64,000 nt of DNA from Sphingosinicella microcystinivorans. GTDB taxonomy: Bacteria > Pseudomonadota > Alphaproteobacteria > Sphingomonadales > Sphingomonadaceae. Shown here piece by piece: positions 12,370 to 34,768 of this stretch. Under the pieces are notes generated by a model, which was not told the DNA's origin, searched no databases, and was given only the letters and a program-made list of their open reading frames with translations. Every line of letters starts with the position of its first letter. Positions within the stretch are counted from its first letter, which is position 1. The stretch covers positions 1,474,945 to 1,538,944 of the forward strand of contig NZ_RBWX01000007.1 in NCBI RefSeq assembly GCF_003634215.1. The letters run 5' to 3'. Made by a program: the position numbers and the translations under genes.

Positions 12370-12424
12370 AAATTCTAGTTTATTAAGTTTCGGCCTTTAG
12401 CGAATAAGCTCGGAGTTATAAATA

Positions 12425-17540: not shown

Positions 17541-17651
17541 CTTCCGTTTGCGAATTGGACAATTGACTAACTACTGAGGCTGCGACATCCTCCGCTCCGG
17601 GAAGTTCGGGAAGAACGCCGGAAACCGGCAAAAAGGGTGGGAGCAGCAGCT

Positions 17652-20549
17652 ATGAAGACGATCACCGCGTTCGCCGCGTTGATGGCGACAACCGCATGGA
17701 GCGCGCAGGCCTTCGCGCAGCAGACGGATGCTGTCGAAGGCGAAGTCGCCGAAACCATCATCATCACGGGCACGCGTATCAGCCGCCCGGAACTCGATTT
17801 CGCGAACCCCGTCACAACGCTCTCGGCTGACGCCATCGCCCAGTCCGGCAAGACCAATATCGCGGATTTCCTGACGCAGAGCCCCGCGCTCATCGGTTCG
17901 CAGACCGGCAGCCTCACCGGCGGCTCCGAAACGGAATTCGGCGAAGCCGGCCTCAACCTCCTCGATCTCCGGAACCTCGGCACCGACCGCACGCTGGTGC
18001 TGGTGGACGGGCGCCGCCATGTGTCCGCGCTCGCGGGTTCGGCGGCGGTCGACATCAATGCGATCCCGACCGACCTCATCGAAGCGGTTGACGTCCTGAC
18101 CGGCGGCGCGTCGGCGATCTACGGCGCCGATGGCGTGTCGGGCGTCGTCAACTTCCGGTTGAAGCGCGATTTCGAAGGCATCACCGCGCGCGGCCAGATC
18201 GGCATTTCGCAGCGCGGCGACGGCGGCAACCGGTTCGGTGCGATCACCGCCGGCACCAATTTCTCGGAAGGGCGCGGCAACATCGCCGCCGCCTATGAAT
18301 ACAACAAGCAGGACCGGCTGAACGAACTGCGCCGCGCGCGACTGCGGAATCCGCGCGCCGCCGGCCTTTATCGCAACCAGGCCGACTTGCCTGACGATCC
18401 CAACGTCCCGGACTATATCCCCTATAACGACGTTCGTTACGCAGACACCGCGCGCATGGGCGCTGTCGATGTCGATTTCGACTATGCGTCTGACTTCGAG
18501 GGCGACGGCGATATCTATGACCGTGGCCTCGTGCTGGAGGAATCCGGCGGCTACGCGCAGGGTGGTTCGAGTACGCCCGTGGATGGCTACCAGGGCGACG
18601 TCCTGCCGGGCCTTGAACGCCACCTCGTCAACGTCCTTGGCCGTTATGAATTCAGCGACGCTTTCACGCTGTTTGCCGAGGGCAAGTACGTCCGTAGCAA
18701 GGCGTGGACGCAGCAGCAGCCCACTTACGATTTCTACCTGTTCCAGACAGCCGAAAACCCCTTCATGCCGGAATCGATCCGCAATGCGATCGTGCCCGGT
18801 GCGGCGGCGGCGGCATTTGAAGACCCCGATATGCCGGACGGTGTATGGGTCACGCGCGACAATTTCGATCTCGGCATCAATTTCGAGGAAAACATTCGCC
18901 AGACACTGCGCGGCGTTATCGGGGCCAGCGGCAGTTTCAGCGAGCACCTGAAATACGAGGTGTCGTACGTCTACGGCCGGACGAAGACGCGCACGTTCAG
19001 CCAGGGCAATCGGCTGGAGGCCGAATGGCAGGCAGCGATCGACGTTGTTTCCGATCCCGACACGGGCGCGCCGATCTGCCGGACGATGCTCGATCCCGAT
19101 AATCCCTTCCCGAACTGCGTACCTTACAACATCTTCGGCGAGTACGTGCGCGATCCGGCAGCGATCGGCTTCGTGACGACCGATAGCCTCAGCCGTGCGA
19201 AGGTGACCCAGCACGTCGTCTCGGGCTCCATTTCGGGTGACACCGGTGCGTTCTTCAATCTCCCGGGCGGGGCAGTCGGCTTCGCTTTCGGCGCCGAATA
19301 TCGCAAGGAGAAGAGCACGTTTGATCCCGACCCGGTGATCCGCGATGGCCTGACGTGGTACGGTGCGATTCAGCCGTCGAACGGCCGCTTCGACGTGAAA
19401 GAGGTGTTCGCCGAGATCAACCTGCCCCTGTTAAAGGATGTGCCGGGCGCGCATCTGCTGTCGGTCGGCGGCGCCATCCGGCTTTCCGACTACAGCACGG
19501 TCGGTTCCACGACGACGTGGAAGGTGGACGGCGTCTACGCACCGATTCCCGACGTCTCGTTCCGCGCGACCTATTCGCAGGCGGTGCGCGCGCCGAACAT
19601 TGCCGAGCTGTTCGCGCCGGAAAGCTCCTCGTTCAACTTCATCGTCGATCCGTGCGACACGCAGGAGCTGAACAACGGCACCTCCACGCGCGAGGCGAAC
19701 TGTGCGGCGCTGATCGGCGCGCTCGGCATCGATCCGACGACGTTCAGCCCGACGAGCGACCCCAGCTCGTCACTTTTCACCGAGGGTCTGAGCGGCGGCA
19801 ATCCCGACCTTCAGGAGGAAACCGCGAAGACATGGACGGCGGGCGTGGTGCTTCGCCCGCGTTTCCTGCCTGGCTTCAGCGTTTCGGCGGACTGGTACGA
19901 CATCAAGATCAAGAACGCGATCAACACGCCGCAGGCGGAAGAGCTTGCCGAGCTGTGCGTTGATCAACCTACGCTCGACAATCCGTTCTGCTCGGCGATC
20001 ACACGTGATCCCGATACGGGCTTCATCACCGGTTTCACCTCGCGGCCTGACAACGTTGCGCAGTTCCGCACTGCTGGTCTTGACGTCACACTCGCGTACC
20101 GAATCCGTACGGATACCGCAGGAACGTTCAACGTGGCGCTCACCGGTAATTATCTCGACCGTCTGGAGTACGTGGCAACGCCGGGGGCTGAGGTCGATTC
20201 CGACCGTGACGAGGCGCTTGCCTATGCACCGCGCTATTCGGCGACGCTCGACCTCACGTGGAACAAGGGGCCAATGACAATTGCGTACGGCATCTCCTGG
20301 TTCGACAAGACCCGTCGCTTCAAGACCGAGGATCTTGCGGGAGACCCCGATTACACCGATCCCAAATATTTCTGGGCGAAGCAGAAGTGGGAACACGAAG
20401 TGCAGCTCAGCTACGACATCGGCGAACGCTTCAGAATCTACGGTGGCGTCAACAACCTGTTCGACGAGAAACCGGCGTTCAACTTCACGTCCTACCCCGT
20501 CTCCGCGATGGGGCGCTATTTCTACATGGGTGCGACGGTTTCGTTCTAA
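17652..20549 (+). CDS. TonB-dependent outer-membrane receptor
   Basis: This 965-residue receptor has a signal peptide (ITAFAALMATTAWSAQAFA), a TonB-box-like segment ETIIITGTRI, a plug domain with TLVLVDGRRH and GGASAIYGADGVSGVVNFRLK, and a long beta-barrel ending in the canonical carboxy-terminal Phe (GATVSF). It imports a substrate across the outer membrane with energy from TonB-ExbBD. An S9 peptidase gene follows after 29 bases, suggesting peptide or amino-acid-conjugate uptake, but this is inference. The ATG at 17652 is chosen over a GTG at 17637 because the purine run GGGTGGGAG fits it. Confidence 0.93.
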   Translation: MKTITAFAALMATTAWSAQAFAQQTDAVEGEVAETIIITGTRISRPELDFANPVTTLSADAIAQSGKTNIADFLTQSPALIGSQTGSLTGGSETEFGEAGLNLLDLRNLGTDRTLVLVDGRRHVSALAGSAAVDINAIPTDLIEAVDVLTGGASAIYGADGVSGVVNFRLKRDFEGITARGQIGISQRGDGGNRFGAITAGTNFSEGRGNIAAAYEYNKQDRLNELRRARLRNPRAAGLYRNQADLPDDPNVPDYIPYNDVRYADTARMGAVDVDFDYASDFEGDGDIYDRGLVLEESGGYAQGGSSTPVDGYQGDVLPGLERHLVNVLGRYEFSDAFTLFAEGKYVRSKAWTQQQPTYDFYLFQTAENPFMPESIRNAIVPGAAAAAFEDPDMPDGVWVTRDNFDLGINFEENIRQTLRGVIGASGSFSEHLKYEVSYVYGRTKTRTFSQGNRLEAEWQAAIDVVSDPDTGAPICRTMLDPDNPFPNCVPYNIFGEYVRDPAAIGFVTTDSLSRAKVTQHVVSGSISGDTGAFFNLPGGAVGFAFGAEYRKEKSTFDPDPVIRDGLTWYGAIQPSNGRFDVKEVFAEINLPLLKDVPGAHLLSVGGAIRLSDYSTVGSTTTWKVDGVYAPIPDVSFRATYSQAVRAPNIAELFAPESSSFNFIVDPCDTQELNNGTSTREANCAALIGALGIDPTTFSPTSDPSSSLFTEGLSGGNPDLQEETAKTWTAGVVLRPRFLPGFSVSADWYDIKIKNAINTPQAEELAELCVDQPTLDNPFCSAITRDPDTGFITGFTSRPDNVAQFRTAGLDVTLAYRIRTDTAGTFNVALTGNYLDRLEYVATPGAEVDSDRDEALAYAPRYSATLDLTWNKGPMTIAYGISWFDKTRRFKTEDLAGDPDYTDPKYFWAKQKWEHEVQLSYDIGERFRIYGGVNNLFDEKPAFNFTSYPVSAMGRYFYMGATVSF

Positions 20550-20578
20550 GCGCAGCACAACATAAGGGGGCAGGGCTT

Positions 20579-22576
20579 ATGTACCGGATTCTGGGCGGTT
20601 TCATGCTGCTGGCATCGTCCAGCCTTGCCTCCGCGGCGCCGTCTGCGGTGGTGCCGGAGGATTATTACCGGCTCACGGACGTGAGCGAACCGGCCTTCGC
20701 GCCCGATGGCGCCACGATCGTCTACACCGTCTCGACCCCCGATCAGGCGCGCGATGAAAAGACGAGCGACCTGTGGACTGTGCCGTGGAAGGGCGGAGCC
20801 GCCAGACCGCTCACCAGTACGCCGGAGGTGAGTGAATACAGCCCGCGCTACACACCCGACGGCAAGACGGTCGTGTTCCTCAGCAACGCCGGCGAAAAGC
20901 AGGCCGGCGAGGGCGAAGATGACAGCGACCAGCTCTGGACGATGCCGGCCGCAGGCGGCGCAGGGAAGCGCATTTCCAGCCTCCCCGGCGGGATCAGTGA
21001 CTACGATCTGTCTCCCGACGGCAAATACGCCGTCGTCGTCGCGGAAGTCGGCAAGGCGGTTGGCAGCAAGGCGAAGAATCCGCCGCCCATCGAAACCGAG
21101 CGCTTCTTTTTCAAAGAGGACGGTCGAGGCTATCTCGATGACCGCACGCAGCAGCTTTTCATTGTGGACCTCGAAACGGGCGCGGCGCGGCAGCTGACGC
21201 GCGGTGCGCGCGATCATTGGCGCCCCGCATGGTCGCCCGATGGAAAACTTATCGCCTACACCGCGAAGGACCACGGCGAGACCGACAAGACGCTGAACAC
21301 CGAAATCTATGTGCTGTCCCCCGAAGGCGGCGAGCCCCGCAAGCTCAGCCCGACCGCGAATGCGGACGACGACCCGGATTGGCTCGCGGGCGCCTCGTGG
21401 TCGCCGGATTCGAAGCGCGTCGTGTGGCTCGAAGGCATGGAGGACAAGTGGCTCTACTACGGCACGCCGCACCTCGCCGTTGCGGACCTGGCGACGGGCG
21501 CGGTGACGCGGCCCGCGAAGCTCGACCTCTGGTTCTACTACCCGCGCTTCGCGCCGGATGGGTCGATCCTCACGCAGATCGAGGGTGACCGCGACACGTG
21601 GCTGGCACGCGTGGACGCGAAAAGCGGCAAGATCAGCTACCTCACCAAGGGCACGCGCTTTGCCTATGACTATGCGGTCGCGCACGATGGTCGCATCGCG
21701 ATCCTCGAAACGACCAACGAAAAGCCCGCCGAACTTTTCGCACTCGACAAGAGCGGCGCCCGGCCGCTCACCGATCACAACCGGTGGCTGAAAGACCGTG
21801 CGCTCGGCGAAACGCGTGACGTCCGCTTCAAGAGCGGTGACGCTGAAATCCATGGCTTCTACGTGCTGCCGCCGAATTACGACCCGGCGAAGCGTTATCC
21901 GCTGATCGCGGACCTGCACGGCGGCCCGGTCTATCAGCACAGCCACGAGTTCGACCTCGATGCGCGCGCACTCGCGAGTGCGGGCTATGTCGTTCTGAAG
22001 ATCAATCCGCGCGGCTCATCGGGGCGTGGCTTCGATTTCTCGCGGGCGATCTATGCCGATTGGGGCAATGTCGATGCGCAGGATATCAGCGCGGGCATCA
22101 CCAATGCGATCGAAACCGGCATCGCGGACCCCAGCCGCATCGGCGCGGGCGGCTGGAGCTACGGCGGGATCCTCACCGGCTACATGATCGCCTACGACAA
22201 GCGCATCAAGGCGGCGGTCGCAGGCGCAGGCGTCTCCAACATCTTCGCGACATGGGGCGTCGACATGTATCAGCGCGAATACGTCCTCGAACTCGGCACG
22301 CCGTGGGAGAATGTCGATACGTGGAAGAAGCTCGCGTACCCGTTTTTCGAGCCGGAGCGCATCACCGCGCCCACGCTGTTCCAGTGCGCGGACGCCGACG
22401 ACAACGTGCCCTGCGTAGGCGCCGAACAGATGTACCTGACGCTGAAGACACGCGGCATCCCGACCAAGCTGATCGTCTACCCGGGCCAAAACCACGGTCT
22501 CACCGTGCCGAGCTACCTCGCGCACCGCATCCGCGCCAACATCGACTGGTACGGTCGCTGGTTGAAGGCCGACTGA
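20579..22576 (+). CDS. Exported S9 family prolyl oligopeptidase / acylaminoacyl peptidase
   Basis: This 665-residue protein has a signal peptide (ILGGFMLLASSSLASA), an amino-terminal beta-propeller with WD-like repeats (DGKTVVFLSN, SPDGKYAVVV, SPDGKLIAYTAKD, SPDSKRVVWL) and a carboxy-terminal alpha/beta-hydrolase domain. The nucleophile is Ser527 in GGWSYGG; an Asp in DADDNVP and a His in GQNHGL complete the triad. The ATG has AAGGGGG upstream. With the TonB receptor it forms a likely unit: the receptor brings peptides into the periplasm and the peptidase trims them. Its stop lies one base from the stop of the convergent formamidase gene. Confidence 0.9.
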   Translation: MYRILGGFMLLASSSLASAAPSAVVPEDYYRLTDVSEPAFAPDGATIVYTVSTPDQARDEKTSDLWTVPWKGGAARPLTSTPEVSEYSPRYTPDGKTVVFLSNAGEKQAGEGEDDSDQLWTMPAAGGAGKRISSLPGGISDYDLSPDGKYAVVVAEVGKAVGSKAKNPPPIETERFFFKEDGRGYLDDRTQQLFIVDLETGAARQLTRGARDHWRPAWSPDGKLIAYTAKDHGETDKTLNTEIYVLSPEGGEPRKLSPTANADDDPDWLAGASWSPDSKRVVWLEGMEDKWLYYGTPHLAVADLATGAVTRPAKLDLWFYYPRFAPDGSILTQIEGDRDTWLARVDAKSGKISYLTKGTRFAYDYAVAHDGRIAILETTNEKPAELFALDKSGARPLTDHNRWLKDRALGETRDVRFKSGDAEIHGFYVLPPNYDPAKRYPLIADLHGGPVYQHSHEFDLDARALASAGYVVLKINPRGSSGRGFDFSRAIYADWGNVDAQDISAGITNAIETGIADPSRIGAGGWSYGGILTGYMIAYDKRIKAAVAGAGVSNIFATWGVDMYQREYVLELGTPWENVDTWKKLAYPFFEPERITAPTLFQCADADDNVPCVGAEQMYLTLKTRGIPTKLIVYPGQNHGLTVPSYLAHRIRANIDWYGRWLKAD

Positions 22577-22577
22577 G

Positions 22578-23402
22578 CTATTCGCCGAGCAGCGTGCGCG
22601 TCAGCGGGTGATCGGGGTCTTCAAGCCCGTCGATGACGTTGAAGTGATGACGCCCCGGTTCCTCGAAAAGCGCGGCTGCGGCGCCAAGGCCGCTCCAGAT
22701 GTTTGCGAGAAGTGCCGACTGGCGGCGGAACTCGGGGCGCTCGTCCGCACCCATCCAGCAGGTGACGCGCGCGCCGGCGAGGGGGGCGAGCAGCGCAGGG
22801 CTCTCGCCGGCGGCTTCGGCATCGTCGATATGGAGCGTGTCGTTCATTTCCGTTCGCATCAGCGGCCGCAGGTCGGCGAGCGCGGAAATGGGAACGGTAT
22901 GCACGACGCGGGCCGCGACCTCGCGCGGTAACGGCGAGGTCGCGGAGACCATGCGCGCGGCGAGATGCCCGCCCGCAGAGTGACCGGTGATGAGGATCGG
23001 GCCTTCAATGCGTGCCGCAGCGGCGGTGATCGCGGCGCCGACTTCGCGCGAAATGCCACTGATCGGGGTTTCCGGGCAGAGCGTATAGGACGGCATCGCG
23101 ACAGCGAAACCGCGCGCGAGCGGTCCGCGCGACAGGTGCGACCAGTAGCTCTTGTCGAGTGCGAGCCAGTAGCCGCCATGGATGAAGACCACGAGGCCGC
23201 GGGGCGTGCCTTCGGGCAGGAACAGGTCATAGCGATTGCGGGGAGCGTCGCCGTAGGGAAGGTCCAGCATCGCGCGTGTACCGCAAGCTTCGCGCCAGCG
23301 CCGGGCAGGCTCAACCCACGCCTCTGGCCAGCGGTCGCCGTCCGCGATGTGCGCGCTGTTCGCGTAAGCGTCGTCCCAGTCGATGATCGCCTGCAGGGTC
23401 AT
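22578..23402 (-). CDS. Alpha/beta hydrolase, probable kynurenine formamidase
   Basis: This 274-residue hydrolase has the oxyanion-hole motif FIHGGYW and the nucleophile elbow GHSAGG, the signature of the arylformamidase (esterase/lipase-type) kynurenine formamidases. The catalytic His is likely in GRHHFNV near the end. It would hydrolyse N-formylkynurenine to kynurenine and formate, the step between KynA and KynU, both encoded in the divergent operon. It is unrelated to the metal-dependent KynB cyclase family. ATG 23402 has GGGAGCG upstream. The role is supported strongly by context. Confidence 0.8.
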   Translation of the reverse strand: MTLQAIIDWDDAYANSAHIADGDRWPEAWVEPARRWREACGTRAMLDLPYGDAPRNRYDLFLPEGTPRGLVVFIHGGYWLALDKSYWSHLSRGPLARGFAVAMPSYTLCPETPISGISREVGAAITAAAARIEGPILITGHSAGGHLAARMVSATSPLPREVAARVVHTVPISALADLRPLMRTEMNDTLHIDDAEAAGESPALLAPLAGARVTCWMGADERPEFRRQSALLANIWSGLGAAAALFEEPGRHHFNVIDGLEDPDHPLTRTLLGE

Positions 23403-23439
23403 GTTCGCTCCCGTTCGAGTTTGCACACAATGCGCGACA

Positions 23440-23484
23440 CCTAAAATATTTCAACCCTGAAATTTTAGGCTTGAAACATTAAAG
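23440..23484. promoter_or_regulatory. AT-rich repeat cluster in the formamidase/ACMR divergent promoter
   Basis: CCTAAAATATTTCA (23440-23453) is mirrored by TGAAATTTTAGG (23458-23469), and a third related copy, TTGAAACATTAAAG, follows at 23471-23484. The inner core TTTCA-ACCC-TGAAA is a perfect palindrome. The cluster lies between the divergent starts at 23402 and 23528 and is the natural operator candidate for the MarR regulator encoded in the operon. The repeats are seen; protein binding is inferred. Confidence 0.6.
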
Positions 23485-23527
23485 TCTCCGTGTCAGCCTG
23501 CGACTCATCGACAAGGGAGATCATCCG

Positions 23528-25819
23528 ATGGATGTGGCTGTACTCGGCGGTGGACCCGCAGGCCTTTATTTCGCGATCTGCATGAAGCTGCGCGATGCGG
23601 GGCATCGCGTCACCGTGATCGAACGCAACCGCCCGGACGATACCTTTGGCTGGGGCGTCGTGCTTTCGGACGAGACGCTGGACAATCTCGCCGCGAACGA
23701 CCCCGTCAGCGCTGCCGCGATCCGCGAGCATTTCGCCTATTGGGACGACATCGCCGTCGTCCATAAGGGCGTGCGCACGGTTTCGACCGGCCACGGCTTC
23801 TGCGGTATCGGGCGCAAGCAACTCCTGCTGCTGCTCCAGGCGCGCGCGCTGGAGCTTGGCGTCGAAATCTGTTTCGAGACCGAGGCGGAGCCGACGCAGA
23901 CCTATATGGACAAATACGACCTCGTCGTCGCGGCAGATGGGCTCAACTCCCGCACGCGCACCGAGTTCGCAGACCATTTTCAGCCGAATATCGACGTGCG
24001 CAAGTGCAAGTTCGTCTGGCTCGGCACGCACCAGAAGTTCGACGACGCCTTCACCTTCATTTTCGAGAAGACCGAGCACGGCTGGGTCTGGGCGCACGCC
24101 TATCAGTTCGATGCCGACACGGCGACGTTCATCGTTGAATGCACGGAAGACACGTGGGCGGCCTTCGGCTTCGGCGAGATGACGAAGGAAGAGTCGATCG
24201 CGACATGCGAGCGCATCTTTGCAAAGCACCTCGGCGGGCATTCGTTGATGTCGAACGCCGCGCATGTGCGAGGTTCGGCGTGGATCAACTTCCCGCGCGT
24301 ACTCTGCGAGCGCTGGTCCTACCAGAATGTCGCGCTGCTCGGCGATGCGGCGGCGACCGCACATTTCTCGATCGGTTCGGGCAGCAAGCTCGCGATGGAA
24401 AGCGCCGTGGCGCTCGCGGACTATATCCACAGCGAGCCGACGCTGGCGGCGGCCTTCCAGAAGTATGAGGACGCGCGCCGTGTCGAGGTGTTGCGCCTGC
24501 AATCGGCAGCGCGCAACTCGATGGAATGGTTCGAGGAGGTGGAGCGCTACCTCGATCTCGATCCCGTACAGTTCAACTATTCGCTGCTCACGCGCTCGCA
24601 GCGCATCTCCCACGAGAATCTGCGCCTGCGTGATCGCGCGTGGCTCGATAGCGCGGAGATCTGGTTCCAGCAGCAAGCGGGCGCTGGAAACGTGCGCCGA
24701 GCGCCGATGTTCGCGCCTTTGAGCCTGCGCGGCATGACGCTGCAGAACCGTATCGTCGTCTCGCCGATGGCACAGTATAAGGCGGTCGATGGCTGCCCCA
24801 CCGACTGGCACTTTGTGCACTATGCCGAGCGCGCCAAGGGCGGTGCCGGCCTGGTGTTCATCGAGATGACCTGCGTCAGCCCCGAAGGCCGCATCACACC
24901 CGGCTGCCCGGGCTTTTACGCGCCCGAGCACGAGGCGGCATGGAAGCGGCTCGTCGATTTCGTTCATGCCGAAACTCACGCGAAGATCTGCGCGCAACTC
25001 GGCCACTCCGGCCCCAAGGGTTCAACGCGGGTCGGCTGGGAAGAGATGGATGCACCGCTCCCCGCGGACAACTGGCCGCTGCTTGCCGCTTCTGCCGTGC
25101 CGTGGTCGGAGCGCAACACGGTGCCGAAGGCCATGGACCGTGCCGATATGGATCGGGTCCGCGACGAGTTCGTTGCGGCGGCCGAAATGGCGGACCGCGC
25201 CGGCTTCGACATGGTCGAGATACACGCCGCGCACGGCTATCTGCTCTCGTCGTTCATCAGTCCGCTCACCAACCGGCGCGAGGACGAATACGGCGGCAGC
25301 CTTGAAAACCGAATGCGCTATCCGCTGGAGGTGTTCCGCGCCGTCCGTGCCGTGTGGCCGGAAGAAAAGCCGATCTCTGTGCGTATCTCCGCGAACGACT
25401 GGGTCGGCGACGAAGGTGTGACGCCGGAAGAAGCCGTGCAGATCGCCGAAATCCTGAAGGACGCGGGCGTCGATATCTGCGACGTCTCTGCCGGGCAGAC
25501 GTCGGTGCGTGCGAAGCCTGTCTACGGCCGCATGTTCCAGACGCCGTTCTCTGACCGTATCCGCAACGAGACCGGCATGGCGACGATGACTGTGGGTAAC
25601 ATCTACGAGCCCGACCACGCCAACTCGATCCTGATGGCGGGCCGCGCCGATCTCGTCTGCCTCGCACGCCCGCATCTTTCCGATCCCTACTGGACGCTGC
25701 ACGCGGCGGCGACGCTCGGCGACAAGCAGACGGAATGGCCGAAGCCCTATCTCCCCGGGCGCGATCAAGCGTTGCGTCTCGCCGAGCGCGGACCCGAGCA
25801 GATGACGGGCAAGGTATGA
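23528..25819 (+). CDS. 2-Aminobenzoyl-CoA monooxygenase/reductase (ACMR)
   Basis: This 763-residue fusion has an amino-terminal FAD monooxygenase ([11 protein letters not shown] at the start, [14 protein letters not shown] near residue 275) of the salicylyl-CoA hydroxylase type. From about residue 392 an Old Yellow Enzyme domain follows ([52 protein letters not shown]). This is the architecture of ACMR, which hydroxylates and then reduces the ring of 2-aminobenzoyl-CoA without ring-cleaving dioxygenase. The anthranilate-CoA ligase in the operon supports this over salicylyl-CoA 5-hydroxylase. It is the first gene of the operon; ATG 23528 has AAGGGAG upstream. The next gene overlaps it by ATGA. 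Confidence 0.9.
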
Positions 25820-26562
25820 TCGCAGGGCAAAGCGCTCTCGTCACCGGTGGTGGCACCGGCGCGGGCCGGGCCATCGCACTTGCGCTTGCGCAGGCTGGTG
25901 TTGACGTCACGATCTGCGGCCGCCGCCTCGCGCCACTGGAAACGGTGGCGCAGGAAAACGAACGCATAAGCGCCGTGCAGGCCGATGTGACCGACGAAAC
26001 CGCGATGCGCGCGCTCCACGCGGCGCACGGCCCGTTCGACATCGTCGTTGCGAACGCCGGCGCGGCTGAAAGCGCCCCCGCACACAAGGTGACGCAGGCG
26101 GATTGGCAGGCAGCGCTCGCCGTGAACCTCACGGGCGCGTTCCTCACCGTGCAGCCTGCGATCGCGCCGATGGTGAAACGCCGCGCCGGGCGGATCATCT
26201 TCATCGCCTCCACGGCGGGTCTCAAGGGCTATGCCTATGTCGCGCCCTATGTGGCGGCGAAGCATGGCGTCGTCGGGCTGATGCGCGCGCTCGCGGCGGA
26301 GACGGCGAAATCGGGTGTCACGGTCAACGCCGTCTGTCCCGGCTTCACGGAGACCGATCTCCTCGAAGAGTCGATCGAGCGCATCATGGCGACCACGGGC
26401 CGCAGCCGCGAAGACGCGCGCGCCAACCTCGCCGCCACGAACCCGCAGGGCCGTTTCATAACGCCGGACGAGATCGCGGCCACCGTGCTGTGGCTCGCGA
26501 GCGAAGGTGCTGCGTCCGTCACCGGCCAGGCCATTTCCGTTTCGGGCGGCGAGACATGGTAA
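25816..26562 (+). CDS. Short-chain dehydrogenase/reductase of the anthraniloyl-CoA operon
   Basis: This is a 248-residue classical SDR. It has the cofactor motif [12 protein letters not shown], the NAGAAES segment, catalytic Ser in IASTAG and Tyr-x-x-x-Lys in YVAAK, and PGFTETD. The substrate is not readable; context suggests reduction or oxidation of an alicyclic or open-chain hydroxyacyl-CoA made from the ACMR product. The start ATG lies within the ACMR stop (ATGA), indicating coupled translation. The MarR gene overlaps its end by seven bases. Confidence 0.88.
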
Positions 26563-27020
26563 GCGCGCCGCTTACGGCTGACGATGGGAAGGAGCGCGTC
26601 CGCCTGTGGCTGCGTCTGCTCCGCGCGACGCGGCTGATCGAGGCCGAACTGCGCGAGCAGCTGAAGATCGAGTTCGACACGACGCTGCCGCGCTTCGACG
26701 TCATGGCGGCGCTCGACCGCGCGCCCGACGGCATGATGATGAGCGAGCTTTCGCGTTTCCTGCTCGTCTCCAACGGCAACGTCACCGGCATCGTAGATCG
26801 CCTGGTATCGGATGGATTGGTTGCCCGCACCGCACGCGACGGCGACCGCCGCGCCTTTATCGTCAAGCTGACCGAAGCGGGCACCAAACAGTTCAAGGCG
26901 ATGGCCGCCGCGCACGTCCGCTGGATCGATGCGATGCTTGCCGACGTCGACCCTGAAGAGGCCGCGCATCTCGCCGGCACACTCAGAACGTTCCAGAGCA
27001 AGTGGGAGGGCGGACATTGA
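26556..27020 (+). CDS. MarR family transcriptional regulator
   Basis: This 154-residue winged-helix regulator shows the MarR pattern: [25 protein letters not shown], the recognition helix region [12 protein letters not shown], and the wing [21 protein letters not shown]. It is encoded inside the catabolic operon, overlapping genes on both sides. MarR proteins in aromatic-CoA pathways usually release DNA on binding the CoA thioester; here 2-aminobenzoyl-CoA would be the logical effector and 23440-23484 the operator. Both points are inferred. Confidence 0.9.
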
Positions 27021-27829
27021 CGCAGATGGCAGGACTGAAGCCGAAGCATTTCCTCTGGGAGGTCGAGGACCGCATCGCGCGCGTCCGACTCGACCGGCCC
27101 GAGCGTAAAAACCCGCTGACCTTCGAATCGTATGCCGAGATGCGCGATACCTTCCGCGCGCTCGTCTATGCCGATGATGTCGATGCCGTGGTGTTCCTGC
27201 CCAATGGCGGCAACTTCTGTTCGGGCGGCGACGTCCACGACATCATCGGGCCGCTCGTCGCGATGGACATGAAGCAGCTGCTCGCCTTCACGCGCATGAC
27301 GGGCGATCTCGTGAAGGCGATGCTCCACTGCGGCAAGCCGATCATCTCGGCGGTGGACGGCGTGGCGGTGGGTGCGGGCGCGATCATCACCATGGCGTCG
27401 GATATGCGGCTGGCAACGCCTGCCGCGAAGACGGCGTTCCTGTTTACGCGCGTGGGCCTCGCCGGCTGCGACATGGGCGCGTGCGCGATGCTGCCGCGGA
27501 TCATCGGGCAGGGCAGGGCCTCCGAGCTCCTTTACACCGGGCGCACGATGAGCGCCGAGGAAGGCGAACGCTGGGGCTATTACAACCGGCTGGTTTCCGC
27601 CGAGGCGTTGGAAGACGAGGCGATGGCGCTCGCACGGCGGATCGTGGCGGGGCCGACGTTCGCGCACGGCATCACCAAGACGCAGCTCAACCAGGAATGG
27701 TCGATGAGTCTGGATCAGGCGATCGAGGCCGAGGCGCAGGCTCAGGCGATCTGTATGCAGACGCGGGACTTCGAGCGAGCGTACAAGGCGTTCGTGGCGA
27801 AGCAGACTCCGGTATTCGAGGGCGACTGA
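27017..27829 (+). CDS. Enoyl-CoA hydratase/isomerase family protein
   Basis: This crotonase-fold enzyme has about 270 residues. It contains the oxyanion-hole segments [11 protein letters not shown] and [21 protein letters not shown], plus [19 protein letters not shown] where family catalytic residues lie. Possible roles include hydration of an unsaturated acyl-CoA or hydrolytic opening of the alicyclic ring, as crotonase relatives do in the benzoyl-CoA pathway. The start chosen is TTG 27017 (overlapping the MarR stop as TTGA, with GGGAGGG upstream); ATG 27026 is possible. The next gene's ATG overlaps its TGA stop by one base. Confidence 0.85.
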
Positions 27830-28980
27830 TGGCGGACCGCAGCTTTCTGGATTGGCCGTTCTTCGAAGACCGGCATCGCGACTACGCCGAGCGGCTGGAG
27901 GCTTGGTGCCGGGAAAATTTGCCGGTCGACCACAGCGACACAGACGCGGCGTGCCGCCGTCTTGTGGACATGTTGGGCGCAGGCGGCTGGCTGCTGGCGA
28001 CGGCGGTGGATAGCGATACGCCTGCGCCGCTCGACGTGCGCACGCTGTGCATTACGCGCGAGACGCTCGCGCGGCATGACGGGCTGGCCGACTTCGCCTT
28101 TGCGATGCAGGGCCTAGGCACCGGGACGATCAGCCTGTTCGGCGATGCCGGACACCGCGAATGGCTGCGGAAGACGCGGGCGGGCAAGGCGATTTCGGCG
28201 TTCGCGCTTTCCGAGCCGCGCTCGGGATCGGACGTCGCCAACATGGATATGGCCGCCCGCCGCGACGGCGACGGCTACGTGCTTTCAGGCGAAAAGACGT
28301 GGATTTCGAACGGCGGCATTGCCGACGTCTACACGGTGTTCGCCCGCACCGGCGAGGCGCCGGGCGCGAAGGGCATTTCTGCGTTCGTCGTGGCGGCGGA
28401 TACGCCGGGGCTCGAGATCGCCGAGCGTATCGATGTGATCGCGCCGCACCCACTCGCGCGGCTACGTTTCAATAACGTGCGCGTGCCTGCGTCGGCGCTC
28501 ATCGGGAAACCCGGCGAAGGCTTCCGTATCGCCATGTCGGTGCTCGACGTGTTCCGCTCGACCGTGGGCGCGGCTGCGCTCGGGTTCGCGCGCAGGGCGC
28601 TTGAAGAGAGCATCAAGCGCACCAGCGAACGCACATTGTTCGGCGCGCCGCTGTTCGATTTGCAGATGGTGCAGGGCCACATCGCGGACATGGCGCTCGA
28701 CGTAGATGCGGCGGCGCTCCTCGTCTACCGCGCCGCATGGACCAAGGACATGGGCGCACCGCGCGTGACGCGCGAAGCGGCGATGGCGAAACTCTACGCC
28801 ACCGACCGCGCGCAATCCGTGATCGATAAAGCGGTACAGCTTCATGGCGGGGACGGCGTGCGCCACGGCCACATCGTCGAAAGCCTGTACCGGGAGATCC
28901 GGGCGCTTCGCATCTACGAAGGCGCATCGGACGTACAGAAGGTGGTGATTGCGCGTCAGGTGATGGGAGCGGGAGCATGA
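27829..28980 (+). CDS. Acyl-CoA dehydrogenase
   Basis: This 383-residue FAD enzyme belongs to the acyl-CoA dehydrogenase family. The FAD/substrate signature [16 protein letters not shown] is followed by [17 protein letters not shown]. The carboxy-terminal helical domain has [32 protein letters not shown], where the Glu of YEGAS is the likely catalytic base. It differs clearly from the glutaryl-CoA dehydrogenase later in the operon. It presumably introduces a double bond into an alicyclic or pimelyl-type CoA ester from anthranilate. Exact substrate is inferred only. Confidence 0.88.
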
Positions 28981-30593
28981 TTTTGGGGCCGTCTGCCCAT
29001 GTCGATACGTTTACGCGGGACAATCTGCCACCGTTCGCGGAATGGCCGGACCTGCTGCTCGACGGCTTCGAATACCCCGATTACCTGAATGCCGGCGTCG
29101 AACTCACCGACGCGATGGTCGTCAAGGGCTTTGGCGATCATACCGCGCTGATCGGCAACGGGCGCCGCCGCACCTACAAGGAACTGACCGACTGGTCGAA
29201 CCGCATCGCGCACGCGCTTGTCGAAGACTACGGCATCAAGCCGGGCCACCGCGTTTTGATCCGTTCGGCGAACAATCCCGCGATGGTCGCGTGCTGGCTC
29301 GCCGCGACGAAGGCGGGCGCAGTCGTCGTCAACACCATGCCGATGCTGCGCGCGGGTGAACTTTCGAAGATCGTCGACAAGGCCGAGATCAGCCTCGCGC
29401 TCTGCGACACGCGCCTGATGGACGAGATGGTGCTGTGCGCGAAGGACAGCCGTTTCCTGAAGGCGGTCGTCGGCTTCGACGGCACCGCCAACCACGATGC
29501 GGAACTTGATCGCGTGGCGCTCGGCAAGTCCGTGAAATTCGATGCGGTGCAGACGGGCCGGGACGACGTGGCGCTGCTCGGTTTCACCTCGGGCACCACG
29601 GGCGAGCCCAAGGCGACGATGCACTTCCACCGCGATCTGCTGATCATCGCGGACGCGTATGCGAAGGAAGTGCTCGGCGTGCGCCCGGACGATATTTTCG
29701 TGGGTTCGCCGCCGCTCGCGTTCACCTTCGGGCTTGGCGGGCTTGCGATCTTCCCGCTGCGTTTCGGCGCCGCGGCGACGCTGCTCGAACACGCTTCGCC
29801 GCAAAGCATGATCGAGATTATCGAGACCTACAAGGCGACGATCAGTTTCACCGCGCCGACGGCCTACCGCATGATGCTCGCCGCGTTCGACGAGGGCGCG
29901 GACCTCTCCTCGCTGCGCATTGCCGTGTCGGCGGGCGAAACGCTGCCCGCGCCGGTGTTCGAGGATTGGGTGCGGAAGACGGGCAAGCCGATCCTGGACG
30001 GCATCGGCGCGACCGAGCTGCTGCATATCTTCATTTCGAACCGCCTCGACGACATGCACCCGGCCTGCACCGGGCGACCTCTCACCGGCTATGAAGCGAA
30101 GATCGTGGACGAGGACATGAACGAGCTGCCGCGCGGCGAAATCGGACGGCTTGCCGTGCGCGGCCCCGTGGGCTGCCGCTACCTCGCCGACACGCGGCAG
30201 AAGAAGTACGTGAAGGGCGGCTGGAACCTCACCGGCGACTCCTTCACGCAGGATGCGGAAGGCCGCTTCCACTTCGCTGCGCGGTCGGACGACATGATCA
30301 TTTCGGCGGGCTACAATATCGCCGGGCCGGAGGTGGAAGCCGCGCTGCTCAAGCATCCGCACGTGCTCGAATGTGCGGTGATCGGCGTTGCCGATGAGGC
30401 GCGAGGCCAGATCGTCGAGGCGCATGTCGTGCTGGTGGAGGGCCTCGCGCCCGACGACGGTGTTGTGAAGGCCTTGCAGGACCACGTGAAGGCGACGATC
30501 GCGCCTTACAAATACCCGCGCTCGGTGCGGTTCACGGCCGCGCTTCCCAAAACCGAGAGCGGCAAGATCCAGCGCTTCCGATTGAAGGCATAG
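28977..30593 (+). CDS. 2-Aminobenzoate (anthranilate)-CoA ligase
   Basis: This 538-residue member of the benzoate-CoA ligase branch of adenylate-forming enzymes carries the P-loop-like [19 protein letters not shown], the A5 region [12 protein letters not shown], and [22 protein letters not shown], ending with the catalytic Lys motif [10 protein letters not shown]. It would activate anthranilate released by kynureninase to 2-aminobenzoyl-CoA, the substrate of ACMR. Its ATG overlaps the preceding stop (ATGA). Benzoate specificity cannot be excluded from sequence alone, but the neighbours argue for anthranilate. Confidence 0.87.
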
Positions 30594-30601
30594 AGAAAAA
30601 A

Positions 30602-31795
30602 ATGACCGATTTCAGCGCAACACGCGCGAAGTTTCATATCCCCGACGGCATCATCTATCTCGACGGCAATTCGCTGGGGCCGCTGCCGATCGCCGCGAAG
30701 GCGCGCGCGGCGAAGGTGATCGAGGAGGAATGGGGCGGCGAGCTTATCAAGGGCTGGAACACCGCAGGCTGGATGGTGCAGCCGCGCAAGGTCGGCGACC
30801 GCATCGCGCGGCTGATCGGCGCACCCGAAGGTAGCGTCGTGATGGGCGATACGCTTTCGATCAAGGTTTACCAGGCGCTCGCCTCCGCGCTCGAAATGCG
30901 CCCCGACCGGCGCGTGATCGTGTCGGATAACGGCAATTTCCCGACCGATCTCTACATGGCGCAGGGCCTTATCGCGTCGCTGGGGCGGGGGCATGAGCTG
31001 AAGGTCGTGGACCCCGAAGCCGTGGAAGCCGCGATCGACGAAAGCGTCGCCGCGCTGATGATCACCGAGGTCGACTATCGCACGGGCCGGAAACACGACA
31101 TGGCGAAGCTGATCGCCAAAGCGCATGCGGTGGGCGCGCTGGTCATCTGGGATCTGGCGCACTCGGCGGGCGCGATTCCCGTCGATCTGAAAGGTGCGGG
31201 TGCGGACTTCGCGGTCGGCTGCACCTACAAGTATCTGAACGGCGGACCCGGTGCGCCCGCCTTTATCTACGTGGCGGCGGAACATGCGGACGCGGCGCGC
31301 CCAGCGCTTTCCGGCTGGATGGGCCACGAGGCGCCGTTCGCGTTCGATCAGGACTATCGCCCCGGCAACGGTATCGAGCGGATGCGGGTCGGTACGCCGC
31401 CGATCATCGCGCTGGCCGTGCTCGATGCCGCGCTCGATGCCTGGGAAGGCGTCGACATGGCAGACGTGCGCCGCAAGTCGATCGAACTCTCGGAACTGTT
31501 CATTCGCGAGGTCGAGGCGCGCTGTCCTGACCTTGTGCTCGCTTCGCCGCGCGACAGCGCGGTGCGCGGCAGCCAGGTGTCGTTCCGTCACCCGCAGGGC
31601 TACGCGGTCATGCAGGCGCTCATCGCACCCGGGCTGATCGGCGATTTCCGCGCGCCCGACGCGCTGCGGTTCGGTTTCACGCCGCTTTATATCGGCGAGG
31701 AGGAGGTGCTCGGCGCAGTCTCCATCATGGAGGACGTGCTGAGCAAAAGGAGCTGGGACAAACCCGAATATCACAGAAGAGGACTTGTCACTTGA
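30602..31795 (+). CDS. kynU: Kynureninase
   Basis: Kynureninase cleaves kynurenine to anthranilate and alanine with pyridoxal phosphate. The 397-residue protein opens with [12 protein letters not shown], has [16 protein letters not shown] for the cofactor pocket and the Schiff-base lysine Lys210 in [15 protein letters not shown]. The end ([15 protein letters not shown]) is typical of the family. It is eight bases after the ligase gene, and its stop overlaps the tryptophan dioxygenase start. It links tryptophan breakdown directly to the anthranilate-CoA genes in the same transcript. Confidence 0.96.
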
Positions 31796-32637
31796 GCACC
31801 CAGCAACCCTATGACCCGGCCCAAGACGGCGCGCAGATGTCGTTCCGGGAACGTATGTCCTACAGCGACTATCTGTCGCTCGATCCGATTCTGAACGCGC
31901 AGAAGCCGCTGTCGACCGCGCACGACGAGATGCTGTTCATCATCCAGCACCAGACTTCGGAACTTTGGATGAAGCTTGCGATCCACGAGGTGCGCGCCGC
32001 GATGGAGGCCGTGCGTGAGGGGCGCGTTTCGAACGCCTTCAAGATGCTGACGCGCGTGGCGCGTATCTTCGAGCAGCTGAACAGCGCGTGGGACGTGCTG
32101 CGGACGATGACCCCGAGCGAATACACCGAGTTTCGGGATTCACTCGGCCAGTCTTCGGGCTTCCAGTCCTACCAGTACCGCGCGATCGAATTTCTCGCAG
32201 GGAACCGCAATGCCGCGATGCTGAAACCGCACGCCCACCGGCCCGAGATCATGGCGCAGCTTGAGGATATTCTCTCCAAGCCGAGCCTTTACGATGAAGC
32301 GCTGCTGCTTCTCCAGCGCAGCGGCATCCCGATCGGCAAGGCCGACGCGGAGCGCACGGAATGGGCAACGCCGCGCACGGAAAGCCAGGACGTCGTTGAG
32401 GCCTGGAAAACCGTATATCGTTCGCCGGAGAAATACTGGGCACTTTATGAGCTTGCTGAAAAGCTCGTGGATTTCGAGGACTATTTCCGGCGTTGGCGCT
32501 TCAACCACGTAACGACCGTGGAACGCGTCATCGGCCTCAAGCGCGGCACTGGCGGCACCTCCGGGGTCGCCTACCTGCGCAAGATGCTGGAGGTGGAATT
32601 GTTCCCCGAACTCTGGAAAGTACGCACCGAACTCTAG
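31792..32637 (+). CDS. kynA: Tryptophan 2,3-dioxygenase
   Basis: KynA is a heme dioxygenase that opens the indole ring of L-tryptophan to give N-formylkynurenine, the entry step of the pathway. The 281-residue protein contains [26 protein letters not shown] with the substrate-site His, [13 protein letters not shown], and [24 protein letters not shown] holding the heme-ligand His. It starts at TTG 31792, overlapping the kynU stop as TTGA. Length matches bacterial TDO. Confidence 0.97.
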
Positions 32638-32647
32638 GAGCACGACC

Positions 32648-33823
32648 TTGGCAATTTTTGACCCCTTCGACCCGTTCGGCCTTGAGCAGCAGCTCACCGA
32701 AGAAGAGCAGATGATCTCCGCAACCGCGCGCCGCTATGCCGAGGACCGGCTGGCGCCGCGCGTTGTCGAGGCCTTCCGGCACGAGAAGACCGATCCGGCG
32801 ATCTTCCGCGAGATGGGCGAGCTTGGCCTGCTCGGCGCGACGATCTCGCCCGAATACGGCGGGGCGGGCTTCGGCTACGTCGCTTATGGCCTGATCGCGC
32901 GCGAGGTCGAGGCGATCGACAGCGGCTACCGTTCGATGATGAGCGTGCAGTCCTCGCTCGTGATGGTGCCGATCGAGACGTTCGGTTCGGAAGCCCAGAA
33001 GCAGAAGTACCTGCCGAAGCTGGCCCGCGGCGAGTGGATCGGCTGTTTCGGCCTCACCGAGCCGGACCACGGCTCCGACCCCGGATCCATGGCGACGCGC
33101 GCAAAGAGCGTGCCGGGCGGATACCGCCTTTCGGGCGCCAAGACGTGGATCACCAACGCGCCCATCGCCGACGTGTTCGTCGTGTGGGCGAAGACCGATG
33201 ACGGCGCGATCCGCGGCTTCGTACTCGAAAAGGGCATGGAGGGACTCTCCGCGCCGGCGATCCACGGCAAGGTGGGCCTTCGCGCCTCGATCACTGGCCA
33301 GATCCTGATGGACGACGTGTTCGTGCCCGAAGAGGCGATGTTCCCCGAGGTGCGCGGCCTGAAGGGGCCGTTTACCTGCCTCAACTCCGCGCGCTTCGGC
33401 ATTGCGTGGGGGGCGCTCGGCGCAGCGGAATCCTGCTACAAGACGGCGCGGCAATATACGATGGACAGGAAGCAGTTCGGGCGCCCGCTCGCGGCGAACC
33501 AGCTCATCCAGAAGAAACTTGCCGACATGGTGACGGACATCTCGCTCGGCTTCCAGGGCTGCCTGCGTCTTGGCCGCATGAAGGATGACGGGCATCCGCC
33601 TGTCGAGCTGACCTCGATCCTGAAGCGCAACAGCTGCGGCAAGGCGCTCGATATCGCCCGCACGGCGCGCGACATGCTGGGCGGCAACGGTATTTCCGAC
33701 GAGTTCGGCGTCGCGCGGCATCTCGTGAACCTGGAGGTGGTGAACACCTACGAGGGCACGCACGACGTCCACGCGCTCATCATCGGCCGCGCGATCACCG
33801 GCATCGCGGCCTTCGCGAACTAG
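32648..33823 (+). CDS. gcdH: Glutaryl-CoA dehydrogenase
   Basis: This enzyme oxidises and decarboxylates glutaryl-CoA to crotonyl-CoA. The 391-residue protein follows human GCDH closely along its length: [67 protein letters not shown], and [18 protein letters not shown]. The catalytic base is Glu369 in [10 protein letters not shown]. It begins with TTG 32648 after AGGAG. Its location inside the tryptophan/anthraniloyl-CoA operon suggests that the ring carbons leave through glutaryl-CoA; it may also serve lysine breakdown. Confidence 0.95.
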
Positions 33824-33833
33824 GCGGCCCGTC

Positions 33834-34250
33834 ATGGCGTTTACGACGGTTCGGCCCTTGCGGTTCGGGGACTGCGATCCTTCGGGGATCGCTTACTTCC
33901 CGTCCTATCTCAACCTGCTCGTCGGGGTGATGGAGGAGTTCTTCACCTCCATCGGCTCACCGTGGCCGGTGATGATGGGCGAACGTCGCATTTCTGTGCC
34001 GACCGTTCGGCTGGACATTACGTTCAGCCATCCGGGCGTGCATGGCGACGTGCTTGAATTTGAAGTGGGCGTGAAACGCGTGGGCGGAAGCTCGCTCGAT
34101 TTCCTGCACCGCATCACCTGTCGCGGCACGCTGCTCTGGTCCGCCGAGCAGCGTGTCGTTGCCACCGACACCGATACCCACCGCGCACGTCCGTGGCCGG
34201 ACGACCTGCGCGCGGCCCTCGAACAGCATCTGGAGAGCGAGAATGTTTGA
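33834..34250 (+). CDS. Acyl-CoA thioesterase, hot-dog fold (4-hydroxybenzoyl-CoA thioesterase type)
   Basis: This 138-residue hot-dog-fold thioesterase begins with LRFGDCDPSGIAYFPSYLNL, the 4HBT signature whose Asp is the catalytic residue. Further on are ITFSHPGVHGDVLEFEVGVKRVGGSS and DFLHRITCRGTLLWSAEQRVV. Proteins of this type in aromatic-CoA operons hydrolyse dead-end or excess CoA thioesters, releasing trapped CoA; that role is inferred here. Eight bases of its end overlap the ridA start. Confidence 0.88.
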   Translation: MAFTTVRPLRFGDCDPSGIAYFPSYLNLLVGVMEEFFTSIGSPWPVMMGERRISVPTVRLDITFSHPGVHGDVLEFEVGVKRVGGSSLDFLHRITCRGTLLWSAEQRVVATDTDTHRARPWPDDLRAALEQHLESENV

Positions 34251-34638
34251 AACCCTGCAACCCGAAGGCTGGGTGAAGCCGATCGGCTACGCGAACGGCA
34301 TCGCCGCAGAAGGTACGCTGATCTTCGTGGGCGGCCAAATCGGCTGGAACGCGAACGCAGAGTTCGAGACGGACGATTTTGCGGCGCAGACGCGGCAGAC
34401 GCTTGAAAACATCGTGGCGGTTCTGAAGGCGGGCGGGGCAGGGCCGGAGCACGTGACCTCGATGACGTGGTACGTGACCGACAAGGCAGAATATCTCGCC
34501 AACCTGAAGGGCGTGGGCGCCGCTTACCGCGACACTATGGGCAAAAACTTCCCCGCGATGGCGCTGGTGCAGGTCGCGGCACTCGTCGAGGATCGCGCCA
34601 AGGTGGAGATTCAGGCGTTCGCGGTGAAGCCACGCTGA
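34243..34638 (+). CDS. RidA family (YjgF/enamine-imine deaminase) protein
   Basis: This 131-residue RidA-fold protein contains YANGIAAEGTLIFVGGQIGW, TRQTLENIVAVLKAGGAGPEHVTSMTWYV and FPAMALVQVAALVEDRAKVEIQAFA. RidA relatives hydrolyse enamines or imines to ketones and ammonia. ACMR yields 2-amino-5-oxocyclohex-1-ene-carboxyl-CoA, an enamine, so this protein is a good candidate for removing its amino group. It is the last gene of the operon. The enzymatic assignment is inference; the fold is clear. Confidence 0.85.
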   Translation: MFETLQPEGWVKPIGYANGIAAEGTLIFVGGQIGWNANAEFETDDFAAQTRQTLENIVAVLKAGGAGPEHVTSMTWYVTDKAEYLANLKGVGAAYRDTMGKNFPAMALVQVAALVEDRAKVEIQAFAVKPR

Positions 34639-34768
34639 ATTCTTTTCAGGCGTTTTTTACGAGTTTTCCACAGCTTATTGCAGGCAAGACCGAAATAACA
34701 GAGATGCTTCTTGACAGCGCCGGACCCCGTCAATAGGTACGCCGGGCTTTCGAAATACGAAGCAACGC

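Follow-up and report, generated by a model that had tools for sequence, protein, structure and literature searches.

The window examined here is a stretch of 64,000 nucleotides from Sphingosinicella microcystinivorans (contig NZ_RBWX01000007.1), which holds an operon combining genes of tryptophan breakdown (kyn) with those of the aerobic 2-aminobenzoyl-CoA pathway (abm). The region from 22578 to 34638 consists of one divergent gene and eleven genes on the + strand (23528-34638). The features are listed below, where matches to NCBIfam models are given as score/curated cut-off in bits.

22578-23402, - strand: alpha/beta-hydrolase with the motifs HGGYW and GHSAGG, divergent from the operon and probably an N-formylkynurenine formamidase (NF058665 'HaHSL', 378.7/320)
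23449-23476, no strand: two abutting 14-bp palindromes (23449-23462 and 23463-23476), candidate MarR operator by conservation and by scores of 20.9 and 23.1 bits, from a matrix that includes the ACMR-upstream sites of this genus
23528-25819, + strand: ACMR, an FAD monooxygenase fused to an Old Yellow Enzyme (OYE)-type reductase (NF006101, 1287.9/1078)
25816-26562, + strand: short-chain dehydrogenase (SDR), proposed ring-ketone reductase (PF00106)
26556-27020, + strand: MarR-family regulator, proposed repressor (PF12802)
27026-27829, + strand: crotonase of the Asp type, PaaG-like (NF006107, 483.2/330)
27829-28980, + strand: acyl-CoA dehydrogenase 1, a core abm gene (PF00441/PF02770)
28977-30593, + strand: aryl-CoA ligase, probable anthranilate-CoA ligase (PDB 4wv3; context of kyn modules)
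30602-31795, + strand: KynU, kynureninase (TIGR01814, 271.8/246.4)
31792-32637, + strand: KynA, tryptophan 2,3-dioxygenase, with a TTG start at 31792 or an ATG at 31837 (TIGR03036, 423.1/390.7)
32648-33823, + strand: acyl-CoA dehydrogenase 2, a glutaryl-CoA dehydrogenase (PDB 3d6b, 682 bits; 1siq, 547 bits)
33834-34250, + strand: 4HBT-type thioesterase (PF13279)
34243-34638, + strand: Rid-family protein in which Met106 replaces the catalytic Arg of RidA (PF01042; alignment to YjgF, 1qu9)
34633-34658, + strand: imperfect hairpin and T run after the Rid gene, possible terminator, read by eye with low confidence and absent from the list of the terminator scan

Profile matches account for every family that the earlier note had named at this locus (hydrolase, KynU, KynA, ligase, ACMR, SDR, crotonase, acyl-CoA dehydrogenases, thioesterase, Rid and MarR), and its observation holds with corrections, that is, it is partly confirmed. 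The matches of the hydrolase, ACMR, crotonase, KynU and KynA exceed the curated cut-offs, and the SDR, the MarR protein, the ligase, both acyl-CoA dehydrogenases, the thioesterase and the Rid protein have family-level NCBIfam matches only. The hydrolase, which had been placed within the single transcript, was rejected as a member of it because its gene lies on the opposite strand, divergent from ACMR. The junctions had been said to overlap nearly throughout; the ten on the + strand are, in order, -4, -7, +5, -1, -4, +8, the KynU/KynA junction, +10, +10 and -8 (negative values are overlaps), and at best six of them overlap, counting KynU/KynA with the TTG start. With this start KynA overlaps KynU by 4 bases, and with the next ATG there is a gap of 41 nt; the annotated kynA of Thalassospira marina likewise overlaps kynU by 4 bases. 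Both of the acyl-CoA dehydrogenases that had been noted are present, but the second matches solved glutaryl-CoA dehydrogenases (3d6b, 1siq) over its full length, and its reading as a further beta-oxidation enzyme was replaced by this more specific one.

Gene content and order, the glutaryl-CoA dehydrogenase included, are identical in all three other genomes of the genus that hold the whole stretch (L095, L096 and L098), and the arrangement is therefore not due to chance. Two further loci of the genus, L097 and L099, whose contigs end early, agree as far as they reach, with five other loci of the genus found in all.

The best reading of the operon is a conversion of tryptophan via anthranilate to 2-aminobenzoyl-CoA, and we consider it very probable that the operon and the divergent hydrolase gene together would take tryptophan to central metabolism. 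KynA would open the indole ring of tryptophan, the divergent Ser-hydrolase would strip the formyl group, and KynU would yield alanine and anthranilate, from which the ligase would form 2-aminobenzoyl-CoA. ACMR would then hydroxylate and reduce this thioester to 2-amino-5-oxocyclohex-1-ene-1-carbonyl-CoA. In the proposed lower part, the SDR may reduce the 5-oxo group, the Met-type Rid protein may hydrolyse the ring enamine with release of ammonia, and the Asp-type crotonase may open the ring; acyl-CoA dehydrogenase 1 and general beta-oxidation could then lead to glutaryl-CoA, which the second dehydrogenase would convert to crotonyl-CoA and CO2. The MarR protein would repress both directions from the palindromes between the hydrolase and ACMR genes, and an early CoA thioester, for example 2-aminobenzoyl-CoA, would probably lift the repression. 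The sequence comparison itself shows the families, their order, the recurrence of the linkage, the conservation of the operator-like sites and the Met replacement, and it finds no KynB, CatA or AntA above cut-off in the host genome.

The pathway and its enzymes are already known. The aerobic 2-aminobenzoyl-CoA pathway of Azoarcus (Aromatoleum) evansii and its abm operon were reportedly described by Schuehle et al. in 2001, and the operon is said to include, besides, a MarR-like regulator, a putative translation inhibitor, which is the Rid family, and a gene for an ATP-binding cassette (ABC) substrate-binding protein. None of the genes at 23528-34638 encodes an ABC substrate-binding protein. 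The core of the present operon matches this system, which the earlier note had also named: the fused FAD monooxygenase-OYE protein, a benzoate/anthranilate-type CoA ligase, and an SDR, crotonase, acyl-CoA dehydrogenase, MarR and Rid protein, a set conserved elsewhere too, are all in the cluster. The fused ACMR, a 2-aminobenzoate-CoA ligase and beta-oxidation-type enzymes are likewise the elements summarised for A. evansii in PMC4539516, whereas here KynU, KynA, the glutaryl-CoA dehydrogenase and the thioesterase lie inside the operon and the formamidase-like gene is divergent. In Cupriavidus metallidurans CH34, both abm and kyn (tryptophan) genes are listed in the aromatic catabolism of one strain (PMC8879955), and the text available there is silent on linkage, a shared regulator and the type of formamidase. 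Arthrobacter sp. Rue61a likewise has the ligase, for which anthranilate-CoA ligase activity was measured, and a putative ACMR, but its anthranilate comes from quinaldine, and the words 'kynureninase' and 'tryptophan' are absent from the main text (PMC3534580). The KynA and KynU steps of Paraburkholderia xenovorans LB400 (kynABU) are alike; however, that strain uses KynB, and anthranilate and tryptophan are placed under the catechol pathway in the account given (PMC11676955). A combined kyn-abm operon was not found described in the open-access PMC literature, where the search was made. New here are the candidate regulon signature, the proposed formamidase assignment, the Met-type Rid protein, and a glutaryl-CoA dehydrogenase that points to glutaryl-CoA.

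Recurrence of the linkage and a candidate operator

Of 246 genomes of the order, 95 have a match to ACMR, as do 60 of 289 genomes of the class (some matches being partial) and, at a stricter E-value, 38 of 279 genomes of the phylum. In the order, where the loci of 60 of the 95 ACMR genomes were fetched, kynU and kynA lie beside ACMR in four (L036, L037, L090 and L091; at least 45% identity). For the class, 42 of the 54 genomes with KynA (12 with fragments or distant homologues left out), 53 of the 60 ACMR genomes (7 reductase-domain or partial matches left out) and 9 of the 10 KynB genomes were used; among the 289 genomes both KynA and ACMR occur in 30 (Fisher p 4e-17, kinship uncorrected). 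In the phylum outside the class, the two are linked in one of nine genomes that match both (G754; L218). Distant proteins of the tryptophan 2,3-dioxygenase (TDO) family, with frames of about 360-410 aa and about 110-124 bits to TIGR03036, occur in G253, G264, G428, G468, G486 and G522 and are perhaps another dioxygenase type.

The earlier note had singled out the linkage for its occurrence in a sphingomonad. It is not special to this genome: the search for the gene order in other genomes, which that note had proposed, found the combination well beyond the genus, at varying positions in rhizobia, Thalassospira, roseobacters and other groups. In a further sample of 80 named loci and three from plasmids, kynA lies near ACMR, alone or together with kynU, in Aquamicrobium, Aquibium, Nitratireductor, Mesorhizobium, Thalassospira, Ruegeria pomeroyi (megaplasmid), Sulfitobacter, Limimaricola, Paracoccus and Ahrensia, among others. 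In the locus of the R. pomeroyi DSS-3 megaplasmid (L215), a cupin gene stands between the acyl-CoA dehydrogenase and ligase genes.

A set of 136 rows was drawn from 160 ACMR rows by leaving out identical rows and unlinked contigs under 14 kb, a locus being counted as unlinked if no kyn gene lay within the stretch examined (14-26 kb). It contains 37 linked loci, with kynA in 37 and kynU in 27. The kyn genes follow the ligase (kynU and kynA in either order) or precede it, follow Rid, or stand upstream of ACMR in either orientation; 24 gene orders were counted, a number inflated by loci that end early. Parsimony on one FastTree of ACMR, an uncertain tree with 38 open forks, gives 21 state changes for the kyn linkage. 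From the varied positions and these changes, the linkage looks recurrent and labile. In the same tree, the ACMR of the genus groups with those of Phyllobacteriaceae, a Rhizobiaceae bacterium, Halomonadaceae, the same-family genome G114 and Sphingomonas asaccharolytica (20 rows, support 95) and is separate from the majority of the ACMRs in its family, a placement that suggests horizontal transfer at some depth.

Some counts weigh against our interpretation: KynA and ACMR lie within 15 kb in only six of the 30 class genomes that hold both, and among the 136 loci only 60 have all six core neighbours of ACMR and 11 have none. Moreover, 99 of the 136 loci have no kyn genes in reach, and the CoA pathway therefore works without linked tryptophan genes. 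This agrees with an alternative in which the kyn genes supply anthranilate for biosynthesis or signalling, the CoA enzymes serve exogenous anthranilate only, and the co-regulation is coincidental. We regard this alternative as highly unlikely, given that the kyn genes stand inside the operon, between the ligase and the glutaryl-CoA dehydrogenase, that the linkage is recurrent on the tree, and that operator-like sites are shared at a distance, as described below.

The second of the two abutting palindromes, which is of the TTTCAAGCTTGAAA type, overlaps a -35-like TTGAAA (23471-23476) before ACMR. Because the right half of the palindrome is this -35-like box, a bound protein would block the promoter. 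The operator matrix derives from 74 such sites located before ACMRs with 60% identity or more. Among ACMR genes at least 70% identical, 63 of 101 (62 of 99 non-redundant) have a match to TTTCAAGCTTGAAA with at most two mismatches upstream, and 83 of 101 (81 of 99) with at most three, compared with 0.0% and 0.6% of mononucleotide shuffles, respectively; some genomes are present twice under different loci (e.g., L100/L152 and L112/L201), and the counts of sites, Rid, crotonase and hydrolase were repeated without the duplicates. The site within two mismatches fades with ACMR identity, to 11 of 43 at 60-70% and 4 of 30 at 52-60%. In 57 of 114 cases a further site, scoring 8 bits or more, is present 13-15 nt upstream, and the conserved -10 places, 17 nt below TTGAAA, carry A at 71% and T at 71% of the 114.

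Across 217 loci, 193 sites of at least 18 bits were found, 157 of them within 300 nt upstream of a cluster gene, compared with 5 in shuffled and 9 in first-order Markov random sequence of the same length (4.04 Mb). As an independent test, 22 kyn loci without ACMR in the stretch were scored, and ten (L234-240, L243, L246 and L249) have a site scoring 18 bits or more ahead of their first gene, which argues for one MarR regulon covering the abm and the distant kyn loci. In L246, from the KynB-bearing genome G459, the operator-like site precedes kynB-kynA. We infer that the bound protein would be the MarR protein of this operon, released by a CoA thioester; if this is right, the palindrome is a DNA signature for finding the rest of the regulon.

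Some results do not favour this interpretation of the site. Of the 22 distant kyn loci, twelve lack a strong site; among the ten with one, seven fall into two groups of related genomes (L234/L235/L236/L240 and L237-239), so that the independent groups number about five. Among the strong sites, 36 of 193 are not upstream of any cluster gene used as a query, and none of the 21 ACMRs less than 52% identical has a site within two mismatches. The scan for consensus promoters, which gave four promoter-like matches where 1.8 were expected, did not list the promoter derived from the comparison and listed one at 23420-23447 (+) instead. The terminator scan was at chance level, with 9 terminator-like matches for 9.1 expected.

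Operator-like sites also occur in other settings. In locus L243, operator-like sites in tandem accompany a MarR-kynA-kynU operon; its genome, G271, has no ACMR match. Two extra sites are found in each of the abm loci L139 (Mesorhizobium qingshengii; 17149 and 18041) and L227 (Mesorhizobium-type; 3189 and 4082), and the genes behind those of L139, an HpaI-type aldolase and a pyridoxal phosphate-type aminotransferase, are candidate regulon members. At 16241 in L104, a site precedes a substrate-binding protein whose sole NCBIfam match at E<=1e-20 is TrpX, below the cut-off, and uptake of tryptophan within the same regulon is possible. At 8891 in L175, a site stands before an AraC-type regulator resembling AndR (below the cut-off), beside the abm-kyn cluster.

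Anthranilate as the predicted substrate

The host genome has a single KynA and a single ACMR, and the latter matches VioD over residues 1-357 and the OYE family over 393-741 among solved structures. The proteobacterial catechol 1,2-dioxygenase family (TIGR02439) has no match in the host genome, and anthranilate 1,2-dioxygenase (TIGR03228) has none above the cut-off, the best being 173.8 of 671.9 bits. The CoA route is therefore the only anthranilate route visible, in a search that did not extend to meta-cleavage or other routes. The closest solved relative of the ligase is the anthranilate-CoA ligase 4wv3 (1.7e-85), and its score against the benzoate-CoA ligase family TIGR02262, 358 of 375 bits, is slightly below the cut-off. 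These results support the earlier claim that tryptophan would be consumed through the CoA route without catechol; if right, this is a catechol-free tryptophan route in soil and marine Alphaproteobacteria.

The strongest evidence for anthranilate as the probable substrate of the ligase is the position of its relatives away from ACMR. In four genomes (L234, L235, L236 and L240; two of them Mesorhizobium-type according to the ACMR tree), a ligase with 82% identity adjoins kynA, and a hydrolase homologue lies 0.3-1.8 kb from the ligase in the opposite direction. In the two of these genomes whose ACMR loci were fetched (L227 and L228), the abm core has no ligase. This arrangement speaks against salicylate or benzoate as the substrate, one part of the outcome on which the earlier note would have given up its proposal.

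Database names speak for salicylate: NF006101 is called a bifunctional salicylyl-CoA 5-hydroxylase/oxidoreductase, and most of the annotated plasmid homologues listed carry the same salicylyl-CoA name. On this view the ligase and ACMR would act on salicylate by the salicylyl-CoA 5-hydroxylase route, with the kyn genes as unrelated neighbours. A salicylate pathway was rejected on the context of the ligase beside kynA in the four genomes, and the nearest solved ligase, the many arrangements in which the kyn linkage occurs and the operator-like site common to kyn modules also oppose it. In addition, a Rid protein, which is expected for nitrogen chemistry, is present in 94 of the 136 ACMR loci, and formation of gentisyl-CoA would presumably need no fused ring reductase. 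Taken together, salicylate seems extremely improbable, and the reading through 2-aminobenzoyl-CoA is retained. If it is right, the name salicylyl-CoA 5-hydroxylase is one of two database names to be corrected, the other being the hormone-sensitive lipase discussed next.

The divergent hydrolase as a candidate formamidase

No KynB (TIGR03035/cyclase family) is found above the cut-off in the host genome, where the best match has 40.6 of 223.05 bits. The divergent hydrolase, filed as a 'hormone-sensitive lipase', is most likely, judged from its sequence and distribution, a formylkynurenine formamidase of the eukaryotic Ser-hydrolase type that would replace KynB. Formamidase differs between eukaryotes and prokaryotes (PMC4243253, on bacterial KynB). 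The hydrolase has the HGGYW oxyanion motif and the Ser-acid-His triad of the eukaryotic type; the triad was assigned by comparison with HaHSL as described in PMC6921082, and S142, E221 and H253 are kept in all 35 distinct homologues. Its matches to solved structures include 2pbl (5.6e-79) and the kynurenine formamidase of Drosophila, 4e11 (1.8e-12); the latter match has only about 50 bits, and the HGGYW motif is common to both proteins in the alignment. The eukaryotic-type enzyme (4e11; PMC4243253) is thus alike in Ser-hydrolase family and catalytic triad, whereas the present hydrolase is bacterial and known from sequence.

In the class, KynB is above the cut-off in six of the 42 KynA-positive genomes. 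A relative of the hydrolase (E<=1e-30) occurs in 31 of the 36 KynA-positive genomes without KynB and in one of the six with KynB (p 0.0016, kinship uncorrected). In R. pomeroyi the hydrolase homologue lies one base from kynA in the same direction, and both genes are divergent from ACMR; in L237-239 (genome sizes 6.9-8.0 Mb) it stands ahead of kynA and kynU. It is present in 20 of the 37 kyn-linked ACMR loci and in 3 of the 99 others, loci cut by contig ends being included in both counts. On our reading, the Ser-type formamidase may be common in Alphaproteobacteria.

Other results tell against the formamidase assignment. Of the KynA-positive genomes, five lack both KynB and a hydrolase match at 1e-30, 17 of the 37 kyn-linked ACMR loci show no hydrolase (again with loci cut by contig ends), and 36 KynA-negative genomes of the class have a match, so that the hydrolase family is broad. 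HaHSL of Halocynthiibacter arcticus, a member of the same NF058665 family, is described as a short-chain esterase that cleaves p-nitrophenyl C2 and C4 esters, and 2pbl of Ruegeria sp. TM1040, the solved structure closest to the hydrolase, is labelled a putative esterase; both are described as lipase or esterase with no link drawn to kynurenine, and the words 'kynurenine' and 'formamidase' are absent from the main text of the HaHSL paper (PMC6921082). The activity of HaHSL, the loci without the hydrolase and the weak cyclase-family relatives elsewhere in the host genome would suit a general esterase or lipase, with formylkynurenine hydrolysed by another enzyme or spontaneously. Against this stand the pattern complementary to KynB, the adjacency to kynA in R. 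pomeroyi and L237-239, the shared operator-like site and the homology to the Drosophila enzyme, and we judge a general esterase to be unlikely. If the formamidase assignment is right, it also gives a candidate function for the structure 2pbl.

Rid, crotonase and the proposed lower pathway

In the alignment with YjgF (1qu9), Met106 of the Rid protein takes the position of the Arg, so that the catalytic Arg105 of RidA is lacking. Met is found at this position in 114 of 115 Rid homologues with ACMR in the same locus (113 of 114 distinct), and the sole exception is a second paralogue, 32% identical, in L051. The Arg of RidA binds the substrate carboxylate, and its change to Ala almost abolishes imine hydrolysis (PMC4433059). 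In a thioester there is no such carboxylate, and the replacement therefore fits an enamine-CoA deaminase, as which the Met-type Rid protein may act. If right, this proposes a chemistry for Rid proteins lacking the Arg. It should be set against this that the replacement could also fit a loss of deaminase activity, and that Rid groups lacking the Arg are presumed to serve other functions in the account of PMC4433059. In Arthrobacter Rue61a grown on anthranilate, the CoA ester of a C7H8O4 acid, tentatively cyclohexanedione-carboxyl-CoA, was reported (PMC3534580), which would be the deaminated ring.

The crotonase has I120 and R142 at the positions where the catalytic glutamates of a Glu/Glu enoyl-CoA hydratase are expected. 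Its Asp149, aligned with an Asp of PaaG (4fzw_C), is invariant in 158 of 158 homologues (156 of 156 distinct). Acyl-CoA dehydrogenase 1 matches 5jsc and 5idu, which are acyl-CoA dehydrogenases without assigned function; more tentatively than for 2pbl, candidate functions would follow for these two structures and for 3g64.

A glutaryl-CoA dehydrogenase at least 60% identical lies near ACMR in 19 of 195 loci, four of them from this genus, compared with about one of 195 expected by chance (a rough estimate from one copy per 4-Mb genome, kinship ignored). It is divergent or downstream and occurs also in clusters without kyn genes. Its presence in the cluster points to glutaryl-CoA as an intermediate. 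From the Rid, crotonase and glutaryl-CoA dehydrogenase data, we propose that the ring is opened to a C7 dicarboxylic CoA ester, from which beta-oxidation would lead to glutaryl-CoA; which of the SDR, Rid and crotonase acts first, second and third is a guess. A broader reading would hold jointly that the Ser formamidase is misfiled as a hormone-sensitive lipase, that the Met-type Rid protein deaminates a beta-enamino-acyl-CoA, the Arg clamp being dropped as the substrate is a thioester, and that the ring-opened product joins the lower benzoyl-CoA route (6-oxocyclohex-1-ene-1-carbonyl-CoA, 3-hydroxypimeloyl-CoA, glutaryl-CoA). As a whole this is speculative and we would sooner doubt it than accept it; if true, the lower benzoyl-CoA route would close the gap at the lower end of the pathway.

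Among the neighbouring genes, a tRNA-Asp gene lies downstream of the operon at 34769. Upstream, at 17637-22576 (+), are genes for a TonB-dependent receptor and a Dpp5/S9-type peptidase, with family matches below the cut-offs and the peptidase gene tail to tail with that of the formamidase-like hydrolase; they are possibly a peptide-uptake pair, outside the operon. Farther upstream, the nrdA/nrdB DNA (10352-13395) shares 81-84% identity with copies in plasmid-collection records of Sphingosinicella and Qipengyuania.

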